Below are positions 50,694 to 61,043 of a stretch of DNA of 61,043 bases, in pieces. This DNA comes from Acidimicrobiaceae bacterium. GTDB taxonomy: Bacteria; Actinomycetota; Acidimicrobiia; Acidimicrobiales; RAAP-2. Made by a program: the position numbers and the translations under genes. The stretch is from NCBI GenBank assembly GCA_003133685.1, contig PKYQ01000025.1:29515-90557 (forward strand), given 5' to 3'. The notes under the pieces are model-generated. The model did not search any database. It had not been told where the DNA came from and saw only the letters and a program-made list of their open reading frames with translations. Every line of letters starts with the position of its first letter. The stretch's first letter is position 1.

Positions 50694-51083
50694 CTACGCG
50701 CCCGGCGTCTCGACGCTAACGCCGATCCGAAGACTCGCCTCGCGAAGGCGCGCGTCGTAAGTGAGCATCACCAAAGAACCGTCGTTGATCGACAGCGCGC
50801 TCGCGAGATGAATCGCATCGAGACTCCGGACGTGATCAAGTTCGCTCGCGACGTCGATCACGACGGCGCTGATCGGAATCACATCAATACCCGCAAGCAA
50901 GGCTGTGGCAATACCAACCGGCGACGAATCGAGTCGCCGTGTTGCCTGAAGTAGTTCAACTCGAGTCAGCGCGCTAGTAATTTTTGGCAAGTCAACTCGT
51001 TCGAGCAGCCAAGCCGAAAGTGCATCGGTCTCGGCCTCCCTACAAACCAGTTTGAATAGCGCGGATGTGTCGAGATAAATCAA
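50694..51083 (-). CDS. vapC: PIN-domain ribonuclease toxin (VapC)
   Basis: A 129-residue PIN protein. The acidic metal site is formed by D5 (MIYLDTSAL), E43 (RVELLQ), D89 (SLDAIHLASAL) and D110 (TYDARL). VapC toxins cut specific tRNAs or rRNA. The gene overlaps the upstream antitoxin gene by four bases, so the antitoxin is made first. All catalytic acids are present, so the toxin is likely active. Confidence 0.9.
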   Translation of the reverse strand: MIYLDTSALFKLVCREAETDALSAWLLERVDLPKITSALTRVELLQATRRLDSSPVGIATALLAGIDVIPISAVVIDVASELDHVRSLDAIHLASALSINDGSLVMLTYDARLREASLRIGVSVETPGA

Positions 51084-51355
51084 AACCGCTCGCTGCGTAC
51101 CTCATCGAGAATGTGGGCGTTACTCGGCGACCCCACCTTCGCAGGAAGGGGAGTTGGTATTTGAAACGAGCGCTGCGCGGCGATCAGTTGCCCGTCACGG
51201 AGCAGTCGTTCGCGCACGGTACGTGCTTCGCCGACCGGGATGAGTTCAGCCACTAACGTCCCGTTGTCAGTGACCTGGATCGTCTCACCCTGGCGTACCT
51301 GCTCAATGTAACGGCTGGCGTGTTGGCGGAGTTCACGGATTCCAATGCGTGGCAT
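51080..51355 (-). CDS. vapB: Phd/YefM-type antitoxin (VapB)
   Basis: About 91 residues from the ATG at 51355; the longer frame to 51430 crosses the operator. The N-terminal Phd/YefM fold shows as IGIRELRQHASRYIEQVRQG, then IQVTDNGTLVAELIPV. The C-terminal region should wrap the toxin. With VapC it forms an autoregulated toxin-antitoxin pair, probably through the palindrome at 51364-51386. Confidence 0.88.
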   Translation of the reverse strand: MPRIGIRELRQHASRYIEQVRQGETIQVTDNGTLVAELIPVGEARTVRERLLRDGQLIAAQRSFQIPTPLPAKVGSPSNAHILDEVRSERF

Positions 51356-51363
51356 GTGAAGTA

Positions 51364-51386
51364 GTGTAGCACGCCACGTGCTACAC
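51364..51386. promoter_or_regulatory. VapBC operator, GTGTAGCAC-N5-GTGCTACAC
   Basis: A perfect 9-base inverted repeat (51364-51372 and 51378-51386) lies 8 bases upstream of the vapB start. Size and position fit conditional autorepression by the VapBC complex. Confidence 0.75.
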
Positions 51387-51467
51387 AAATAGGAGGTCCA
51401 GAGTTTCGAAAGTGACCGCGAACAAGACAATGAAAACCAGAAAGATCATCGCGACTCCTCCAAATAG

Positions 51468-52469: not shown

Positions 52470-53936
52470 TTAACCTAAAGGAGTGACGCGAAGCAAGGCC
52501 ACGCCTTCCGAGGGGACGCTCACGCTGATCTTGCCCGCTGCCGATATCGCGCTCACCTGCCCAGTCCAAAGATTTTGGACTTTGTATCCAGAGCTGTCAC
52601 CGCGAAGCCCGATCGCCGATGCCCTTGTCGTGATGGTCTCGTTCGCGGCACTTAAATCTGTTTTCGTGTCGAAAAGTCCGACGATCCCGTCAGCGCTGGG
52701 TTCTACCTTGGCGAACATCTGCGTGTGGTCCACGTCGAAGATCCGTTTTGCGGGAATCGAATCCTGATCCACCTCGATCACTTGCTTGTTCGTCAGTAAT
52801 TTGAGATCCGTCGGGTCAAGACTGCTTCGAGACCCGTAAGCGTTGGTCACCGCGCTTGTCAGATCAACGCCGAGGACCAACGGCGCTGAGCCAAGCGACC
52901 ACAGGCTCAACTCACTCTCTTCTGCGTGAAACGACATTCCACTCTTCGTGGTACCGTCGCCAACCCCGATTGAGTCGTAGTCATTGAAACCACCCGGACC
53001 GCTAAAGGACTGCCATTTGGCGACGTCGTTGAATCGGTCCTCCCAGTGCGAATAGCTCGTCAGTGGAAAGACACTCAAGCAACCCTTAAAGGTCGCGGTA
53101 TAACAACTTTTTGGAAGCCCCTCATCTGGACCGTTGATCTCAATGTCGGGGGCGAACTCCCATTGGTTTGAATACAACTTGAGACTCGGGGCAATTTTCA
53201 CGGTGAAGCTGCCCTCGGTGGTGTCGAGGACCATCGAACGACCGGACTGCTTTATCGCACGTGACCAGGCCTCGATGTCGGGCACATTTTGGTTGGTAAT
53301 GCCGTCGAGTTTGATGTAGTCCACACCCCACGACGCAAGTTCATCGACGATCGAATCCACGTACGCTTGAGCGCCTGGTGCTTTGTCGTTGATTCTCTCC
53401 ATACCCGCGCAGTTGTAATTATTCTGCGGGGCCTTCGTGGCAATTTCATCGGCAGTGTACTTAGCACCAAGAATTGGGGTGTTCTTCGCGACGGCTTGTT
53501 TTGAGATTCCAGCCGTTTCGTAGATACCGAACTTCAGTCCCAGACTATGCACGTATTTGGCCACGGCCTCGATACCATTTTCTGATCCAGCGTCTGGGAA
53601 TTCCTTGCTGTTGATAATCCACCGACCGTACTGATCAACGTTGGGGCCCTGCGGTCCAGGACACTGATACCAGTTGTCGTCGATGTTGACGTACTTGTAG
53701 CCATCTGCGGCGAGGCCCGTCGTGACTAGTGCTTTCGCCTCCCCCTTGATTCTGGCGGCGCTGAGGCCCATGCGCAGAAAACTCCAACTGCTCCAGCCCA
53801 TCACCGGCGTTTGGTCAACACCACCGGTCTCCGCTTGGGCGGGCGCACTCGTTGCCACCAACGGTGCAACGGTCATGGCGAGCGTGACCGACAGCACGCA
53901 GAAGATTGACACCGACTTGGGGGTGACGTGTTTCAC
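52470..53936 (-). CDS. Secreted alpha-galactosidase, GH27
   Basis: A 488-residue glycoside hydrolase. The N-terminal signal peptide (SIFCVLSVTLAMTVAPLVATSAPAQA) is cut after AQA near residue 35. GH27 blocks: TPVMGWSSWSF, GYKYVNIDDNWYQ, LKFGIYETAG and the nucleophile Asp in GVDYIKLDG; a C-terminal beta domain starts near residue 395. It releases terminal alpha-galactose (or, in some relatives, beta-arabinose or alpha-N-acetylgalactosamine) outside the cell. No anchor is seen, so it is freely secreted. It is transcribed away from the ABC sugar operon but probably feeds it. Confidence 0.88.
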   Translation of the reverse strand: MKHVTPKSVSIFCVLSVTLAMTVAPLVATSAPAQAETGGVDQTPVMGWSSWSFLRMGLSAARIKGEAKALVTTGLAADGYKYVNIDDNWYQCPGPQGPNVDQYGRWIINSKEFPDAGSENGIEAVAKYVHSLGLKFGIYETAGISKQAVAKNTPILGAKYTADEIATKAPQNNYNCAGMERINDKAPGAQAYVDSIVDELASWGVDYIKLDGITNQNVPDIEAWSRAIKQSGRSMVLDTTEGSFTVKIAPSLKLYSNQWEFAPDIEINGPDEGLPKSCYTATFKGCLSVFPLTSYSHWEDRFNDVAKWQSFSGPGGFNDYDSIGVGDGTTKSGMSFHAEESELSLWSLGSAPLVLGVDLTSAVTNAYGSRSSLDPTDLKLLTNKQVIEVDQDSIPAKRIFDVDHTQMFAKVEPSADGIVGLFDTKTDLSAANETITTRASAIGLRGDSSGYKVQNLWTGQVSAISAAGKISVSVPSEGVALLRVTPLG

Positions 53937-54298: not shown

Positions 54299-54650
54299 TT
54301 TGTTCCATAGTTCTAGGCCACGCCAAGATTCGTCAACGATGTCAACCAAGGCTTCGTATTCGACCGGCGCGAGGCAACAGGTCGGTTCACGAAAATTCGC
54401 GCTCACGACCTCGACCGGCTGTATCTCGGCTTAATCAATGCTGTCGGATTCGCGCCAGCATTTCATTGGTTGCGGATTGCCGGCAAGTCATGGGGACGAG
54501 ACGGTGTATCCAGGCTTAATTGTTTGGAGCGTGTCGTGCGTTCTAAGAAACTCGAACGTTTGGGACGTTCGGCCCTTTTGCGAACTGCCCGTTACGTGCC
54601 TATGGTTGCGTTTATGACGACGCAGAACGTACGTGTGCGAAATTGACGTT
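54299..54650. other. Intergenic region before the sugar operon
   Basis: A possible transposase C-terminal scrap (CCLAPVEYEALVDIV, minus strand, about 54310-54380) lies at the left. The right part contains the palindrome at 54553-54571 and must hold the operon promoter; a TTGCGA-N17-TATGGT pair near 54579-54607 is one candidate. Confidence 0.4.
54553..54571. promoter_or_regulatory. Palindrome CGAACGT-N5-ACGTTCG upstream of sugar operon
   Basis: Perfect 7-base arms around TTGGG, 80 bases before the SIS gene start. It fits a dimeric sugar-responsive repressor (LacI, GntR or ROK type), but no regulator gene is in the window. Confidence 0.55.
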
Positions 54651-55523
54651 ATGAGCCATTTCTCTGAGGAGTTGAGAAGCCAACCCGAGTTTTGGCGTCG
54701 TGCCGCGCGTCTTGCTCGCGACGGCACCCCGCTACCCGCCGTAGGCGAGAGGGTCGCTCTCATCGGATGCGGAACCTCGTTGTACGTAGCGCAGGCGGTA
54801 GCCAGATATCGGGAAGCACAGGGACTCGGAGAGACCGACGCGTTTCCCGCGTCGGAGTTCCCGGCCCATCGCGCTTACGACACACTGGTCGCCGTCTCGC
54901 GTTCGGGCACGACGACGGAAGTAGTCCGAGCGGTCGCGTCCGTCTCGCCTCAGACGCGCGTCGTCGTGGTCACTGCCACCGAGGACAGTCCCCTTGCCAG
55001 GGCGGCAAGCGATTTAATCCTCCTTTCATTCGCCGACGAAGAGTCGATCGTCCAGACGCGCTTTGCGACGAGCACCTTGGCACTCATCCTCACGTCGCTC
55101 GGCTGGGATATCGAGACATCGGCAGAGCAGGCAGTAGCGCAGCTCGCTATCGGGGCACCGCGCGTGGCAGAGGACACCTTGCAGTTCGTTTTCCTCGGTC
55201 GAGGGATGGCCGCGGCGATCGCGAGCGAGGCGGCCCTCAAGATGCGCGAGGTGCTCGGTGCCTGGACTGAGGCGTACCCGACGATGGAGTTTCGGCACGG
55301 TCCGATCTCCGCGCTCACTGAACGCTCCCTGGTCTGGGTTCTCGACCACGAAGAACCGAGCATCGACGAGCAGATCGAACGCACGGGTGCTCGCCTGTTT
55401 CGACCAGAAGGAGATCCGCTGGTGGAGCTCGTACGGATTCACCTCGTCGCCGAACATCTTGCGTCCGTTCGCGGCATCGATGTCGACCGGCCTCGGTTCT
55501 TGACGCGCTCGGTCGTCCTCTAG
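54651..55523 (+). CDS. SIS-domain sugar-phosphate isomerase/deaminase (AgaS/GlmS-like)
   Basis: About 290 residues from the ATG at 54651 (MSHFSEELRSQPEFWRRA, a start typical of AgaS-like proteins). Two SIS domains are present: the first with VALIGCGTSLYVAQAVARY and the phosphosugar Ser loop SRSGTTTEV, the second with VFLGRGMAAAIASEAALKMREV (catalytic Glu region) and EFRHGPISALT. It lacks the glutaminase domain of GlmS. It likely isomerises, with or without deamination, a 6-phospho-aldose to a ketose phosphate. It is first in the operon, 9 bases before the ROK gene. Confidence 0.85.
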   Translation: MSHFSEELRSQPEFWRRAARLARDGTPLPAVGERVALIGCGTSLYVAQAVARYREAQGLGETDAFPASEFPAHRAYDTLVAVSRSGTTTEVVRAVASVSPQTRVVVVTATEDSPLARAASDLILLSFADEESIVQTRFATSTLALILTSLGWDIETSAEQAVAQLAIGAPRVAEDTLQFVFLGRGMAAAIASEAALKMREVLGAWTEAYPTMEFRHGPISALTERSLVWVLDHEEPSIDEQIERTGARLFRPEGDPLVELVRIHLVAEHLASVRGIDVDRPRFLTRSVVL

Positions 55524-55532
55524 AGGTATCGC

Positions 55533-56495
55533 GTGATAATTCCGACTGACGCCGTCGGCTGTACAGCGCTGGTGCTCGACATTGGCGGAACAAAGCTCGC
55601 CGCCGCGGTGGGAGATACCAATGGAGAACTTCGCCGCGTATGCTTCGCTCCGACATCAGCGTCAGATGGTGGCGTCCGCGTTCTCGAGCGCGCGATCGCG
55701 CTCGCACAAGAGGTACTGGTTCAAGAGCGAGAGGCGGGAGGCGACGTTGTGGCACTCGGTGTCTCAACGATGGGCCTTACTCGCACCGACCACGTCGAGC
55801 TTGCCCCAAACGTTCCCGGCTGGAGCGGCCTCTCGATTCCCGCGACGCTCGCCGAGGCTTTCACTGATCTCGTAGTGACGGTGGGGAATGACGTCAAGGC
55901 AGCCACACTCGCCGAACTCTTCTGGGGGGCCCTGGTCGGCGTCGAGCAGGGCATCTATCTCAATCTTGGAACCGGCGTTGCCGCCGGGCTCGTCGTGGGT
56001 GGTCAGCTCGTTGACGGCGCTCACGGTGCCGCCGGCGAGATCGGCTACTGCTTATTGCGGGGCGCCGACGAGCCGCTCATGGCTGCGGACGGCGCCGCAC
56101 CCGCCGAAGAGGCCCTCGGCGGAAGGGGCGTCGAGAGCCGGGCGCGATCGGTACTCGGTCGCCCGATGAATGTGGCTGAACTTATGGATCTAGCACCGCG
56201 AGACGAGCGGGCTCGCCAACTAGCCGATGAGATCTGGGACGGCATCGCGGCGCTCACCGCGAACCTCGCGATCATCTGCGACCCGGAGGTGATCGTCGTT
56301 GGCGGCGGCTACGTCCGATCCGGGGACGCCTCGCTCGAGCGTGTCACCAAAATCGTGAACCGCGCCACGCCCTTTCCGCCGGTCGTGACCGTCGGGCACT
56401 TCCGGGCCGACGCCTCGCTCTACGGCGCCCTCGCGCTGGCACAACGTGAATCCTTCGATCGCGTCGTTCCTCGTCGTGAAGGCTATGAACGCTGA
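55533..56495 (+). CDS. ROK-family sugar kinase
   Basis: A 320-residue kinase starting with GTG. The ATP phosphate loop is VLDIGGTKLAAAVGD, the catalytic Asp lies in VTVGNDVKAATLAE, and the adenosine region is IYLNLGTGVAAGLVVGG. The cysteine-rich zinc motif usual in ROK kinases (C-G-x-x-G-C-x-E) is absent; the place reads HGAAGEIGY. No N-terminal helix-turn-helix, so it is an enzyme and not a ROK repressor. It likely phosphorylates the incoming sugar, giving the substrate of the SIS protein. It overlaps the PfkB gene by one base (TGATG). Confidence 0.87.
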   Translation: MIIPTDAVGCTALVLDIGGTKLAAAVGDTNGELRRVCFAPTSASDGGVRVLERAIALAQEVLVQEREAGGDVVALGVSTMGLTRTDHVELAPNVPGWSGLSIPATLAEAFTDLVVTVGNDVKAATLAELFWGALVGVEQGIYLNLGTGVAAGLVVGGQLVDGAHGAAGEIGYCLLRGADEPLMAADGAAPAEEALGGRGVESRARSVLGRPMNVAELMDLAPRDERARQLADEIWDGIAALTANLAIICDPEVIVVGGGYVRSGDASLERVTKIVNRATPFPPVVTVGHFRADASLYGALALAQRESFDRVVPRREGYER

Positions 56496-57451
56496 TGGCG
56501 ACGATCGTGACCGTCACGCCAAACCCCGCAATCGACCGAACCTATCGAGTCCAGCACCTCGACCTCGGCAACTCTCATCGGGTCGAGACCATGCACGCAC
56601 AGGCAGGAGGAAAGGGGATCAATGTCGCTCGGATCCTCACCTCGTTCGGGTTTCCGGTGATCGCGGCCGCCATCGTCGGTGGCACCAACGGGGACTGGAT
56701 CGAGCACGAGCTCAGCAACTCTGGTGTCGCGGGACAGTTCGTTACGAGCGGCGGCGACTCGCGCCAAACGATCACGGCGGTGACTAATGGGGGTGATGCC
56801 TGGATTGAATTCGACGAGAGTGGATCAGAGGTGGACGCCGGCACCTGGCGTGATTTCCTCAACCTCGTCTCGAGCCTGATGGAGCCGGCCGACGTTGTTG
56901 TACTCTCGGGAAGCCTGCCGCCCGGCGTGCCGCTTGATGGATATCGCGAACTCGTTGAGATTGCGCACAACGCCCAGGTGCGGGTCGTCCTCGATACGTC
57001 GGGATTACCCCTTCGCGAGGCCCTTGTCGCACGTCCTGACGTCATCAAACCGAACCGCTTCGAACTCGCGGCCATCTCCGAGATGTCCTGCGATTCCGTT
57101 GAGAGTGTGCTTGCCGCATGCCGACACCTTCGTGTCCTCGGTGCCCAGGCGATCGTCGCGACACTTGGCGCCGAGGGAATTGTGGTCTTCGGCGACGAGT
57201 CCGTTTGGCGTGTGCGGCATCCACAGCGCTCGGGCAATCCGGTCGGTGCTGGTGACGCCACAACTGCGGGAATCGCGGCTGGCTACTTCGAGGGACTAGA
57301 GCTCATGGATGCAGTCCGAAGGGGAGCGACGTGGGCGCTGGCGAGCATGGCCAGTCCCTTCGCAGGCCATATCGAGGTTTCCGAGGTCGCCGCGTGCGCC
57401 ACCGTAATCGAAGTCGAGCGCTTGGACTCACACGAGGATCACGGGCAGTGA
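56495..57451 (+). CDS. PfkB-family 1-phosphofructokinase / tagatose-6-phosphate kinase
   Basis: A 318-residue ribokinase-fold enzyme of the hexose-phosphate kinase (FruK/LacC/PfkB) subgroup. The N-terminal VTPNPAIDRTY and AGGKGINVARIL blocks bind the sugar phosphate; GNPVGAGDATTAGIAAG holds the catalytic Asp and anion hole. It should add the second phosphate, giving a ketohexose bisphosphate. FruK, LacC and YihV-like roles cannot be told apart by these motifs alone. The following gene overlaps by four bases (GTGA). Confidence 0.87.
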   Translation: MATIVTVTPNPAIDRTYRVQHLDLGNSHRVETMHAQAGGKGINVARILTSFGFPVIAAAIVGGTNGDWIEHELSNSGVAGQFVTSGGDSRQTITAVTNGGDAWIEFDESGSEVDAGTWRDFLNLVSSLMEPADVVVLSGSLPPGVPLDGYRELVEIAHNAQVRVVLDTSGLPLREALVARPDVIKPNRFELAAISEMSCDSVESVLAACRHLRVLGAQAIVATLGAEGIVVFGDESVWRVRHPQRSGNPVGAGDATTAGIAAGYFEGLELMDAVRRGATWALASMASPFAGHIEVSEVAACATVIEVERLDSHEDHGQ

Positions 57452-58341
57452 CGGACTACTTCGTCTTCGCCTTCGACCACCGGAACTCGCTGCGGAACTT
57501 GCTGTCGTCACTCGACATCGCACCAAGCGAGCAAACTGCCATTGCAACCTTGGCCAAGAGTCTCGCACTCGAGGGATTGAGCGAGGCGTTGCGGTCGCTC
57601 ACAGTGAACGAGGTCGGGATGTTGCTCGTCGATGATGAATACGGCTCGGCCGCGATTGCACGGGCGCGTACGCTCGGTGTCCCCACGGTCGTGCCAGTGG
57701 AGCGGAGCGGTCAACCGGAGTTCATCTTTGAGCACGGCGAGGACGATTTTTGGGCGAGGTTCGTCGAGACCGGCGCGGACACCGTTAAGGCACTCGTGCG
57801 CTACAACCCCGAAGGCGACGCCAGCGCGAACGCTCGAAGCCGGGACCGCCTGGCGAAGCTCGCGGTAGCCGCCGCGAGGGCCGGTACGGATCTGATGCTC
57901 GAACTGCTGGTTCCTCCGTCTGCGGCCCAGCTCGAAGTCGCCGGTGGTGTGGTCGAGCGATACGACGAGACCGTTCGAGCCGATCTCGTCCTCGAGGCGA
58001 TGGCGCAACTCTCCGCCGCGGACATCCGACCTCGGTGGTGGAAGCTCGAGCCCTACCAAGCCGTTGAGCCAGCGCGACGCGTCGCTGCGTATGGCGCTGC
58101 GCACGCACGCAGCGGCTGTCTGGTTCTTGGACGGGGTGCTGACCGCGAGCTCGTCGCCGAGTGGGTGGCAACCGCCGCGGGCGTGCCTGGCTACTCGGGC
58201 TTTGCGATCGGGCGCACGCTCTGGGTCGAGCCACTGCACGAGTTCCTGCAGCACCGCTGCGACGAACGCGATGTGGCTGCGAAGATGGCGGCGAATTATC
58301 TTTACTTCGTAAACGTGTACCGACAACAGAAAGGAAGTTGA
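57448..58341 (+). CDS. DUF2090 (IolC C-terminal-like) aldolase
   Basis: About 297 residues from the GTG at 57448; the longer frame runs inside the PfkB gene. DUF2090 blocks: FAFDHRNSL at the start, LLVDDEYGSAA, VPVERSGQPEF, VKALVRYNPEGD, MLELLVPPS, RWWKLEP and FAIGRTLW. In IolC fusion proteins this domain is tied to aldol cleavage in inositol breakdown. Here it stands alone after a PfkB kinase, so cleavage of a ketohexose bisphosphate (tagatose- or related) into two trioses is a reasonable inference. The SBP gene starts one base after its stop. Confidence 0.8.
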   Translation: MTDYFVFAFDHRNSLRNLLSSLDIAPSEQTAIATLAKSLALEGLSEALRSLTVNEVGMLLVDDEYGSAAIARARTLGVPTVVPVERSGQPEFIFEHGEDDFWARFVETGADTVKALVRYNPEGDASANARSRDRLAKLAVAAARAGTDLMLELLVPPSAAQLEVAGGVVERYDETVRADLVLEAMAQLSAADIRPRWWKLEPYQAVEPARRVAAYGAAHARSGCLVLGRGADRELVAEWVATAAGVPGYSGFAIGRTLWVEPLHEFLQHRCDERDVAAKMAANYLYFVNVYRQQKGS

Positions 58342-58342
58342 T

Positions 58343-59656
58343 ATGACGAGAACATACAGGAGGCACGTCGGCGTATTTGCCGTCGTGGCGATGGTGGGCG
58401 CGACGCTGGCCGTGGGTGTCGGCAACGCGGCGTCGGCGAAAACGCTTGCAGGTACGACGATCAACGTCGCGATCGCCTACCCCGCGCCCCCGAAGGCAAC
58501 GCTCGCGAAGTTCACGAAGCAGACCGGTATCAAGGTCAACTGGTCCTATATCCAGTGGGACGACCTGCAGACGAAGATCGCCGCCGCAGCGGAGGCTAAT
58601 ACCTACTTCGCTGATGTCACCGACGTCGACTGGTCAAAGGTCGGTGAGTACTACCAAACGAAGTGGTTCCTGCCGCTCAACAAGTACTTCAGCCCGAAGT
58701 CGATTGCCTCGCAGTACCCGCAGCTCAGCTCCTTTGTGCGCAACGGGACCTTGATGGGCATGCCCATGGACGTGTCGCTGCTCGTTACGACAGTCAATAA
58801 GGCCGACTTTTCGCGCGCTGGGATCACGACGATGCCAACGACACTCACTAAGTACACGAGCGACCTTCAGCTGATCGCAAAGAAGGGCATCGTTGCGCAC
58901 CCGCTCGACATTCCCTTCTCCGCTGCCGAAGGGCTCTCAACGTACTGGTACGAGGTCACCGCGGCGATGGGCGGGCAGGTCCTCAGCTCGTCGTACGCCC
59001 CGTTGTTCACCTCTAAGTCGTCTCCTGGGTACAAGGCGTTGGCGTGGATGGTCAATGCCTACAAGACAGGCCTCGTGCCGAAGGCCAATCTCGGATACGA
59101 GGACTACCAGGGTTTTGAGACCGACATGGCCCACAACCTCACGGCGAGCGTCTTCTCGGATTACGCGGGCGACCTCGGCACGATCTATCAGGTTCCGAGC
59201 CAGTCGAAGGTGGTGAGCGACGTCGAGTACATCCCGACGCCCGGCACTACGGGCCTCGCGTCGAACCTCGCCAACCCAGATGGAATCGGCATCCCGGCAA
59301 AGGCGAAGCACGTCGCGGCGGCGGTGCAATTCATCAAGTGGATGGAGGAGCCGGCCAACCAGGCCGCGTTCGCTGGAGCTACGGGATCGGCAAACGTCAT
59401 CAGCACCTTCCCGCTGCCCTCGAACGTCGGAGGTCTCAACCAGCTGGCGGCCTCCGGCAAGGTCCCCGGCGGTGCCGCCCTCGTCAACCTCGTCGAGCAC
59501 CACTCCCGTTCGGTGTTCCCGGCCGGGGCGCCACCGTGGTACCCGGCCTTTAGCAATGCGGTCTACACCAACATCCACAGCGTCGTCGCGGGAAGCGAGA
59601 GCGTCGCGAGCGCCATCTCCGCGATTGCCTCGGAAATCGCGAGTCTGAAGAGCTAG
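58343..59656 (+). CDS. ABC transporter sugar-binding protein
   Basis: A 437-residue extracellular solute-binding protein (family 1) with AAAGGAAG ahead of its ATG. The signal peptide ends in GNAASAKT near residue 33. Unlike most Gram-positive SBPs there is no lipobox cysteine, so the mode of anchoring is unclear. Family features are NVAIAYPAPPKATLAKFTKQ, IAAAAEANTYFADVTDVDW, and the closing KHVAAAVQFIKWMEEPANQAAF. It captures the sugar for the permeases encoded next. A GC-rich hairpin separates it from the permease genes. Confidence 0.87.
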   Translation: MTRTYRRHVGVFAVVAMVGATLAVGVGNAASAKTLAGTTINVAIAYPAPPKATLAKFTKQTGIKVNWSYIQWDDLQTKIAAAAEANTYFADVTDVDWSKVGEYYQTKWFLPLNKYFSPKSIASQYPQLSSFVRNGTLMGMPMDVSLLVTTVNKADFSRAGITTMPTTLTKYTSDLQLIAKKGIVAHPLDIPFSAAEGLSTYWYEVTAAMGGQVLSSSYAPLFTSKSSPGYKALAWMVNAYKTGLVPKANLGYEDYQGFETDMAHNLTASVFSDYAGDLGTIYQVPSQSKVVSDVEYIPTPGTTGLASNLANPDGIGIPAKAKHVAAAVQFIKWMEEPANQAAFAGATGSANVISTFPLPSNVGGLNQLAASGKVPGGAALVNLVEHHSRSVFPAGAPPWYPAFSNAVYTNIHSVVAGSESVASAISAIASEIASLKS

Positions 59657-59673
59657 ATGCCGATCTTGGGGGC

Positions 59674-59711
59674 CCTCGCGCCCCGTCGTCTGATGACGAC
59701 GGGGCGCGAGG
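59674..59711 (+). terminator. Strong intercistronic hairpin after the SBP gene
   Basis: CCTCGCGCCCCGTCGTC (59674-59690) and GACGACGGGGCGCGAGG (59695-59711) form a perfect 17-bp stem with a TGAT loop. No T-run follows, and the permease gene starts 14 bases later. It therefore looks like a partial terminator or RNA-stabilising stem that raises SBP over permease output. Confidence 0.7.
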
Positions 59712-59724
59712 TTGAAGAGTTGTC

Positions 59725-60660
59725 GTGTCGCTAGCGACTCGGTTGCATTCGCCGCGAAAGCCAGGGGGCGCGACGGCCCACCGTCGCCGGGTGGGCCGTT
59801 CAGGTCCGCTGCCCTATGTGATGGTCGCGCCGCTCGTGGTCTTCATCGGCGCCCTGGCCATCTACCCGACGGTCCTCACTGTGATCGAGGCGTTCTTTCA
59901 CAACGACCCGTTGACGCCGCCCAATCACTTCGTCGGCCTCGGTAACTTCCGCGGCATTTTTTCGAACCCGCAAGTCGTGTCGGCATTCGAGAACACCGGC
60001 TGGTACGTGCTCTTTGGAGTCGCACTGACCGTTGCGTTCGGCACCTCGATCGCGATATTGCTGCAGAAGAAGTTCCGCGGGCGGGGCATCGTCCTCGCCA
60101 TCATGATCCTGCCTTGGGCGCTGCCCGGGGTCGTCGAGGGAGTCATCTGGTCGTGGATCTACGACCCGACATTCGGCCTGCTCAATTCTCTCTTGAAGAG
60201 CCTGCATTTCCTCTCCCAATACCAGATCTTCGTCGGGACTCGCCAGCTCGAGAGCATCTTTCTGATCTCGCTCGTACAGGTCTGGCAGATCACGCCGCTC
60301 GCAGCCTTGCTGATCCTCGCGTCACTCCAGAGCATTCCCGCGGAGCTGTACGAAGCAGCTCGCGTCGACGGCGCGGGCTGGTGGCAGGTGATCAGGAAGG
60401 TCACGCTCCCGCTGATCCGGCCGGGACTGGCGATTGCCACCGTGGAGGCGCTCGTGCTATCGATCAACATCTTCGATCAGGTCTACGTGCTGAACGCCGG
60501 TGCCACGACTGCTTCGTCGGTCATGAACACCACCTACTTCATCACCTTCCAGAACCTGAACTTCGGTCAGGGATACGCCCTCTCGCTATTGACAACCGTG
60601 GTCACGGTTGCTCTTTCGGTCGGTGCCTTGAAGGTCCTCTATAGAAAGGTCGACTTCTAG
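59725..60660 (+). CDS. ABC sugar permease (MalF/UgpA type)
   Basis: A 311-residue membrane protein beginning with GTG. Six helices are seen; the first is LPYVMVAPLVVFIGALAIYP. The EAA loop that contacts the ATPase is EAARVDGAGWWQVIRKVTLPLIRP (about residues 213-236). It pairs with the second permease that starts directly after its stop codon. No ATPase gene is in the window; many actinobacterial systems share one MsiK-like ATPase encoded elsewhere. Confidence 0.9.
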   Translation: MSLATRLHSPRKPGGATAHRRRVGRSGPLPYVMVAPLVVFIGALAIYPTVLTVIEAFFHNDPLTPPNHFVGLGNFRGIFSNPQVVSAFENTGWYVLFGVALTVAFGTSIAILLQKKFRGRGIVLAIMILPWALPGVVEGVIWSWIYDPTFGLLNSLLKSLHFLSQYQIFVGTRQLESIFLISLVQVWQITPLAALLILASLQSIPAELYEAARVDGAGWWQVIRKVTLPLIRPGLAIATVEALVLSINIFDQVYVLNAGATTASSVMNTTYFITFQNLNFGQGYALSLLTTVVTVALSVGALKVLYRKVDF

Positions 60661-61043
60661 ATGATCCAGAGAATCCGACGATCGGGACGCGCCGTCGGCG
60701 TGGGTGTGGTGGTCCTCTGGTCACTCGTGCCGGTGTACTGGGCCCTCAATACGAGCCTGATGACCAACTCCGAGGCTCAGAGCACGCCCGTCCACTTCTT
60801 CCCGACTCACCCCGTGTTCGCGAACTACGAGGCCCTCTTCGGCGCTGGCCCGCAGAGCGCCAATGCCGGCGGTGGTATCGGTCGCTCCGTCATCAACATC
60901 GCGGTCGAAAGCGCTGGGGCGACGATTCTCACTCTGATCGTGGCGGTACTCGGCGCGTACGCGTTCGCGAGGCTCCGTTTTCGACTAAAGAATTTCCTGT
61001 TCTACACCGTGCTGTTGACGCTGACGTTGCCCATTTACGCGAC
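60661..61043 (+). CDS. ABC sugar permease (MalG type), partial
   Basis: It begins at the ATG just after the MalF-type stop and stays open to the window edge (127 codons seen). A first helix (VGVGVVVLWSLVPVYWALNTSL) is followed by HFFPTHPVFANYEALF, a typical MalG-family loop, then LTLIVAVLGAYAFARLRF. The EAA loop is beyond the edge. It completes the permease pair for the sugar-binding protein. Confidence 0.9.
   Translation, partial: MIQRIRRSGRAVGVGVVVLWSLVPVYWALNTSLMTNSEAQSTPVHFFPTHPVFANYEALFGAGPQSANAGGGIGRSVINIAVESAGATILTLIVAVLGAYAFARLRFRLKNFLFYTVLLTLTLPIYA

Follow-up and report, generated by a model that had tools for sequence, protein, structure and literature searches.

Organization of the operon

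The window examined here is a 61,043-nucleotide stretch of contig PKYQ01000025.1 from an Acidimicrobiaceae bacterium, and its right end is occupied by seven genes of a putative sugar operon, all transcribed rightwards and nearly without gaps (Table 1). In order, these encode a SIS-domain protein, a ROK kinase, a PfkB kinase, a stand-alone DUF2090 protein, and the sugar-binding protein and permeases of an ATP-binding cassette (ABC) transporter, which is the gene order described in the original prediction. The ROK and PfkB genes share one base, and the GTG start of the DUF2090 gene (57448) overlaps the PfkB stop codon. The SIS gene is assigned to the ATG at 54651; its longest open reading frame (ORF) opens at a GTG at 54633, which is a less likely start. 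The window ends where the contig ends, so the operon is incomplete and is broken inside the second permease gene, the fragment of which gave no match when scanned alone against Pfam. The DUF2090 gene is present in a single copy in this genome, and DUF2090 was found in none of 36 searched genomes of the same genus. The clustering of SIS, ROK, PfkB and DUF2090 genes is not due to chance, because the four recur together, with an added deacetylase gene, at two related loci, L108 and L167.

Table 1. Genes of the putative sugar operon and its divergent neighbor (positions in the window)
Feature	Coordinates	Strand	Match
SIS-domain hexosamine-6-phosphate deaminase/isomerase candidate (GlmS-isomerase/GlmD-like, not TIGR02815 AgaS)	54651..55523	+	PF01380, 63.8 bits
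ROK-family sugar kinase	55533..56495	+	PF00480, 121.9 bits
PfkB hexose-phosphate kinase, tagatose-6-phosphate kinase / 1-phosphofructokinase type	56495..57451	+	PF00294, 158.7 bits
Stand-alone DUF2090 class I ketose-bisphosphate aldolase candidate	57448..58341	+	PF09863, 122.0 bits (cut-off 27)
ABC sugar-binding protein	58343..59656	+	PF01547, 93.9 bits
ABC sugar permease 1	59725..60660	+	PF00528, 56 bits
ABC sugar permease 2, open frame running off the contig end	60661..61043	+	31% identity over 107 aa to the L108 second permease region
GH27-type secreted glycosidase, divergent neighbor	52470..53936	-	PF16499, 83.7 bits; PF17801, 35.3 bits

The DUF2090 protein

Several lines of comparison indicate that the DUF2090 protein is very probably a LacD-related class I aldolase acting on a ketose 1,6-bisphosphate. 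First, it also matches the Pfam DeoC/LacD family weakly, below the cut-off, and a profile built from 20 relatives picks out, among solved structures, the LacD tagatose-bisphosphate aldolases as well as 8tnf, itself a DUF2090 protein. Secondly, its AlphaFold2 model (mean pLDDT 94.3, pTM 0.91) ranks LacD structures first in Foldseek and VIA-align comparisons (Z 28.8, 2.6 Å over 274 residues), tied with 8tnf (Z 28.5) and followed by the sulfofructose-phosphate aldolase YihT (Z 25.7) and class I fructose-bisphosphate aldolases (Z 23.4), the fold that this predicted model shares with LacD being in itself no proof of function. A class II-like or new fold was considered and is ruled out, as the fold is LacD-like. 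Thirdly, K113, E151 and K198 (numbered from 57451) are retained in all 105 DUF2090 sequences compared, the window's included, and in a HMMER alignment correspond to Lys, Glu and Lys of the LacD active site; K198 is presumably the Schiff-base residue. The LacD residues named by Price et al. are Lys126 and Glu164 (PMC9007349).

The original prediction regarded a DUF2090 enzyme in this position as a non-homologous replacement of the aldolases used in known tagatose-6-phosphate and galactosamine routes. Against LacD this does not stand, because the fold, the aligned catalytic residues and the DUF2090-LacD homology already described in the available part of PMC9007349 show the two to be homologues; it does hold against the GatY/KbaY-type class II aldolases, which share the same slot in the sister operons described below. 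Judged from these alignments, the DUF2090 protein is a LacD homologue, though the NCBIfam tagatose-diphosphate aldolase models do not file it as LacD (46.8 bits against a cut-off of 184 for PRK12858, and 21.1 against 458 and 18.4 against 519 for two others).

In the literature, as far as the sources were available, DUF2090 or PF09863 turned up in the context of inositol only, and the same paper proposes IolC-fused DUF2090 as the inositol aldolase (PMC9007349). A corresponding role here, as a 5-dehydro-2-deoxyphosphogluconate aldolase, is most improbable: the window DUF2090 is a separate ORF that scores 65 bits against the fusion model (cut-off 600), the PfkB protein is of the 1-phosphofructokinase/LacC type and reaches 36.7 bits against IolC (cut-off 300), and iol-type genes are absent among the seven operon genes seen. 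With the fusion lacking and no iol genes in view, we rejected this role.

Aldolase exchange in sister operons

Relatives of the operon were gathered by two routes. A two-row alignment of the SIS proteins of the window and of L108 was searched in 395 genomes of the class, of which 11, counting that of the window itself, matched at E 1e-20 or better, and the ten other loci (L166–L175) were compared with L108, which itself had been reached through its DUF2090 gene. A search for SIS relatives on plasmids matched 305 records, and seven of the first 11 among the 15 listed were opened (L189–L195); L190 and L193–L195 are unannotated and were read by tblastn.

The closest counterpart is L108, from an Acidimicrobiia metagenome-assembled genome, in which the order SIS-ROK-NagA-PfkB-DUF2090-sugar-binding protein-permeases equals the window operon plus one gene, a nagA (295.8 bits, cut-off 225.65) between the ROK and PfkB genes; its SIS protein is 47% identical to that of the window, and its divergent regulator has AgaR as best NCBIfam model (191.4, below the cut-off of 260). 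L167 comes from a genome of the window's own family; its series SIS-ROK-NagA-PfkB-DUF2090 has no sugar ABC genes behind it. The DUF2090 proteins of the window, L167 and L108 form one clade in a tree of 105 sequences (FastTree support 0.96). SIS, ROK, NagA and DUF2090 genes also occur in other orders in L170 and L171, each with a divergent, distant PfkB, and in L174, whose SIS protein is a more distant relative (33%). In L168 the genes SIS-ROK-NagA are followed by a GatZ/KbaZ gene, encoding a tagatose-bisphosphate aldolase subunit, where PfkB-DUF2090 would stand (PF08013, E 3.9e-161; TIGR02810, 555.7 against a cut-off of 568.8).

Among the plasmids, those of Kitasatospora (L189, NZ_CP108290.1) and Arthrobacter Rue61a (L191, NC_018532.1) carry SIS-ROK-hexose kinase-class II aldolase in the order of the window, and L189 also holds a nagA gene and a regulator with AgaR as best model (186.7, below the cut-off of 260). 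Arthrobacter L192 and Nonomuraea L195 contain SIS, PfkB and class II aldolase genes, and Streptomyces-type L190, L193 and L194 contain SIS and class II aldolase genes with no PfkB detected; in L190 the aldolase is encoded on the opposite strand at a distance of about 4 kb. Over the 18 loci (L108, L166–L175 and L189–L195), DUF2090 is present in five, a class II aldolase in seven, KbaZ in one and none of these in five, and DUF2090 never occurs together with a class II aldolase or KbaZ (0/18). Because the loci are related, were gathered by two routes and were inspected for three aldolase types, this is a pattern and not a significance test. By these comparisons, DUF2090 stands where the SIS-ROK-PfkB-aldolase operons of Kitasatospora and Arthrobacter have a class II aldolase, to which it is unrelated, and this clean swap links a "domain of unknown function" with a second type of pathway.

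Two of these loci have further neighbors that we note separately. On the Arthrobacter Rue61a plasmid (L191, 6068–11610) a sulfatase gene and an alkanesulfonate-type transporter lie directly before the operon, suggesting a sulfated sugar. At L172 (5080–10559) the SIS relative is accompanied by two PfkB kinases and by a GH35 protein that contains a GLMA-like domain, with no nagA detected, and this may be a glucosamine variant.

Sugar substrate of the operon

The operon is probably of the aga type, serving the breakdown of a galactosamine-class amino sugar with the DUF2090 enzyme as its aldolase, and we infer each reaction and substrate from gene content and order. The ABC transporter would bring in the amino sugar, the ROK kinase would convert it to the sugar 6-phosphate, and deamination and isomerisation by the SIS enzyme would yield a ketohexose 6-phosphate, for which tagatose 6-phosphate is the likeliest candidate. 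A second phosphate would then come from the PfkB kinase, and the DUF2090 protein, as a Schiff-base aldolase, would cleave the resulting 1,6-bisphosphate, giving dihydroxyacetone phosphate and glyceraldehyde 3-phosphate. The order of these steps had been put forward in the original prediction, with galactose or N-acetylgalactosamine derivatives suggested as substrates, and homology and gene order support this order and a galactosamine-type sugar. The AgaR-type regulators, NagA and KbaZ of the sister loci indicate N-acetylgalactosamine or galactosamine degraded via tagatose 6-phosphate, which we favor, on balance, as the branch of the pathway. The best solved relatives of the PfkB protein are tagatose-6-phosphate kinases (2awd and 2jg1); it passes the wider hexose-kinase model TIGR03168 (279.3, cut-off 216.4) and misses the LacC tagatose-6-phosphate kinase model TIGR01231 (181.9, cut-off 409.55). 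The ROK kinase exceeds the cut-off of none of the listed NCBIfam models.

A deacetylase, which the original prediction proposed to look for, is not found at the position it has in L108 and L167, and a search of the window genome with the NagA model gave two short stretches only, both below the cut-off; with a genome completeness of 95% and an operon that breaks off at the contig end, nagA may be missing from the data. Because no NagA-type deacetylase over the cut-off was found, the sugar used by this organism is more likely galactosamine than N-acetylgalactosamine, provided that nagA does not follow beyond the end of the contig. The available part of PMC5583593 gives a corresponding annotation rule, by which AgaS without AgaA is read as galactosamine use, though the window SIS protein falls outside the AgaS model. 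Escherichia coli AgaS has been proposed from knock-outs to be a galactosamine-6-phosphate deaminase yielding tagatose 6-phosphate (PMC3668189, in the part available).

Besides the missing nagA, several observations weigh against a tagatose route or against close kinship with the sister operons. The SIS protein scores only 36.2 on the AgaS model TIGR02815 (cut-off 529.2) and resembles the glucosamine-6-phosphate deaminase GlmD more, this being its best NCBIfam model (94.8 bits, below the cut-off of 580), and its closest solved structure is 2cb0 (E 3.2e-21). In a small SIS tree the window is not grouped with L108 and L167; the SIS, PfkB and ROK trees contain too few sequences for a firm placement of the window, and are given without support values. 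The ROK kinase is only 30–32% identical to those of L108, L167 and L168, the DUF2090 proteins of L170, L171 and L174 fall outside the window's clade, and five loci (L166, L169, L172, L173 and L175) have no DUF2090, class II aldolase or KbaZ gene near the SIS gene. No regulator-like ORF is seen between the GH27-type gene and the SIS gene, the opposite flank lying beyond the contig end. Furthermore, three sister class II aldolases fit the fructose-bisphosphate models somewhat better than the tagatose-bisphosphate ones, all below those cut-offs, and the general ketose-bisphosphate model, passed by two of the three, is the only one passed. The GH35/GLMA-like neighbor of the related SIS gene in L172 points the same way.

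Some of these features would fit a glucosamine-type operon, in which a GlmD-like SIS enzyme yields fructose 6-phosphate, PfkB is a fructose-6-phosphate kinase and DUF2090 a fructose-1,6-bisphosphate aldolase. The best models of the SIS protein are GlmD and GlmS, with its best solved relatives likewise, and the neighborhood of L172, the fructose leaning of the sister class II aldolases and the fructose-bisphosphatase and phosphofructokinase genes that adjoin solo DUF2090 genes (see below) agree with this scheme. However, the window genome carries an FbaB aldolase (587.8, cut-off 327), so that DUF2090 is not needed for house-keeping fructose-1,6-bisphosphate cleavage and a dedicated aldolase for it would be redundant, and the KbaZ in the slot of L168 and the AgaR-type regulators of L108 and L189 indicate tagatose; we therefore consider a glucosamine operon unlikely.

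The GH27-type gene, divergent from the SIS gene and about 0.7 kb from its start, raises the alternative that this glycosidase frees galactose, which the ROK kinase converts to galactose 6-phosphate and the SIS protein, as a plain aldose-ketose isomerase, to tagatose 6-phosphate, followed by PfkB and DUF2090. The missing nagA and the dissimilarity of the ROK kinase from those of the nagA operons agree with such a route. However, the genome contains a galactokinase (290.7, cut-off 226.65), which argues weakly against it, and nagA shares the locus with SIS relatives in 10 of the 18 cases (L108, L166–L168, L170, L171, L173, L174, L189 and L195; those of L173 and L174 being distant relatives), and a galactose route is in our view rather improbable. 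The best solved relatives of the GH27-type protein are alpha-galactosidases and a GH27 beta-L-arabinopyranosidase. When it is aligned pairwise by HMMER with an alpha-galactosidase, a poorly scoring segment places one of its Glu residues against the Glu of the CEW motif, a residue that we take to be informative on the substrate. With this Glu, the low-scoring alignment and a galactokinase at hand for galactose, the link from the GH27 gene to N-acetylgalactosamine that the original prediction had suggested is weak, and we dropped it as evidence; a link of this neighbor to the function of the operon is putative at best. Further to the left (50694–51430, leftwards transcribed) is a VapBC-like pair of PIN-domain-like and antitoxin-like ORFs, read by eye.

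Solo DUF2090 genes outside the operon

Solo DUF2090 genes are common, with matches in 57 of 396 genomes of the phylum, 35 of them strong besides the window (E below 1e-45); the weak matches, part of which fall within long frames, might represent IolC fusions. A single-protein scan of the genome collection with the window DUF2090 found no relative, and an alignment-based search found relatives at 443 loci of the named genome collection. The best 80 of the 443, which were kept, are titled Actinomycetota and its groups, Chloroflexi-type, Armatimonadota, Acidobacteria, Bathyarchaeota-type archaea and others. Neighbors were counted by tblastn within 4 kb around 97 distinct DUF2090 loci drawn from the best matches. 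A GlpX fructose-bisphosphatase gene adjoins DUF2090 on the same strand in ten (L073, L086, L104, L113, L124, L126, L129, L136, L137 and L139), all titled archaeal (eight Bathyarchaeota or Bathycorpusculum, one Nitrososphaerota and one Crenarchaeota), with the two genes overlapping or within a few bases of each other (e.g. L073, 4391–6272; L086, 8001–9886); at L097 a GlpX gene is near on the opposite strand. PfkA is near in three (L053, L063 and L097), following DUF2090 immediately at L063 (7598–9518) and L053 (7522–9442), and glucose-6-phosphate isomerase in three (L058, L117 and L150). Pfam confirmed the neighbor's family for L086, L124, L063, L097 (the phosphofructokinase) and L117. A Dormibacteraeota locus (L074, 1501–8189) contains two DUF2090 genes and a PfkB kinase together with, by reading, a second PfkB-like kinase, an FGGY-type kinase and a SorC-like regulator.

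Thirty-six DUF2090-positive genomes of the phylum, namely the 35 with strong matches and one from a separate search, were searched for four aldolase families, PF00274, PF01116, PF01950 and PF01791. Neither class I PF00274 nor class II PF01116 is matched in 21, two of which have PF01950, and the remaining 19 have no PF01791 match above 129 bits; here the absence of FbaB is judged by score, three identified FbaB proteins scoring 184–213. The carrier G076, whose 99% complete genome consists of one contig, matches none of the four families, and the genome of L063 (G388) has no match to PF01116, PF00274 or PF01950, but has unassigned PF01791 proteins. Of 27 DUF2090-negative genomes from other genera than the window's, two lack all families, a figure that rises to four when three weak PF00274 matches are not counted (the PF01950 search did not include G070 and G075). 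With relatedness not corrected for, one-sided Fisher tests give p 0.0001 (19/36 against 2/27) or 0.0009 (20/36 against 4/27, also discounting a weak match of G104), and for genomes at least 90% complete 0.006 (9/21 against 2/26) or 0.018 (10/21 against 4/26). Of the ten archaeal genomes that carry the GlpX pair, searched for PF01950 and PF01791, none has PF01950 and all match PF01791; in the one examined (G799) both PF01791 proteins are over cut-off as ADTH synthase and PRK08227-type thiolase. A literature search on missing aldolases in Bathyarchaeota, limited to a listing of papers, found nothing usable.

We give even odds to the proposal that solo DUF2090 proteins are an unrecognised LacD-related class I family serving as the main fructose-1,6-bisphosphate aldolase of glycolysis and gluconeogenesis in lineages without a canonical one, and that the window operon has recruited one branch to amino-sugar breakdown. 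Such lineages may be found among the Bathyarchaeota-type archaea, in which DUF2090 lies immediately before GlpX, and in the window's phylum, where several may rely on a DUF2090 located beside PfkA; if true, solo DUF2090 would explain how some archaea and some phylum relatives without a recognised fructose-bisphosphate aldolase run this step. Several findings count against a glycolytic role. The commonest neighbor is PurA (adenylosuccinate synthase, named by reading; 16 loci, 14 on the same strand, e.g. L048 and L050), which has no evident metabolic link, and most loci have none of the above glycolytic neighbors. Fifteen of the 36 carriers also match a canonical aldolase family, PF00274 (one weakly) or PF01116, two Armatimonadota carriers have PF01950, and carriers G811 and G813 have PF01791 matches of FbaB strength, that of G811 confirmed as FbaB. 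Moreover, five of the 19 (G272, G067, G208, G293 and G120) hold PF01791 proteins of 107–128 bits that could be aldolases; two of these were scanned and, like a weaker protein of G388, show a resemblance to ADTH synthase that stays below its cut-offs.

Comparison with known systems

Titles and abstract openings yielded nothing on an operon of this type with DUF2090, and the closest known systems each share part of its features. The LacD class I tagatose-1,6-bisphosphate aldolases of Streptococcus and Staphylococcus (3mhg, 5f2l and 5hjl) are alike in whole-length fold and in the aligned catalytic Lys/Glu/Lys, whereas the window protein is only about 20% identical to them and lies in another type of operon, with ABC uptake and a ROK kinase. 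The IolC-DUF2090 fusion (proposed 5-dehydro-2-deoxyphosphogluconate aldolase, PMC9007349) has family PF09863 in common; the window protein is in contrast stand-alone, in an amino-sugar-type operon with no iol genes seen nearby. A solved DUF2090-domain structure, 8tnf, a "sulfohexulose-1-phosphate aldolase" of Paracoccus strain Merri, is about 21% identical to the window protein and is named for a sulfosugar, a label that the text consulted does not tie to an assay. A literature search for 8TNF returned unrelated work only, and the main text of the Paracoccus strain Merri paper, in the part available, names neither DUF2090 nor 8TNF (PMC12421959), and we did not use it as functional proof.

The aga/gam operon of E. 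coli (AgaS, AgaA, KbaYZ and AgaR; PMC3668189, in the part available) follows the same chemical logic, and the sisters of the window operon hold AgaR- and NagA-type genes. The window operon differs in having an ABC transporter and a ROK kinase instead of a phosphotransferase system, a GlmS-like SIS protein outside the AgaS model, and a class I DUF2090 candidate aldolase rather than class II KbaY/KbaZ. Nearest in layout are the actinomycete operons of Kitasatospora (L189) and Arthrobacter (L191), whose first three genes are homologous to those of the window and in the same order, but whose aldolase slot is taken by a class II (metal) enzyme, with no sugar ABC genes directly behind.

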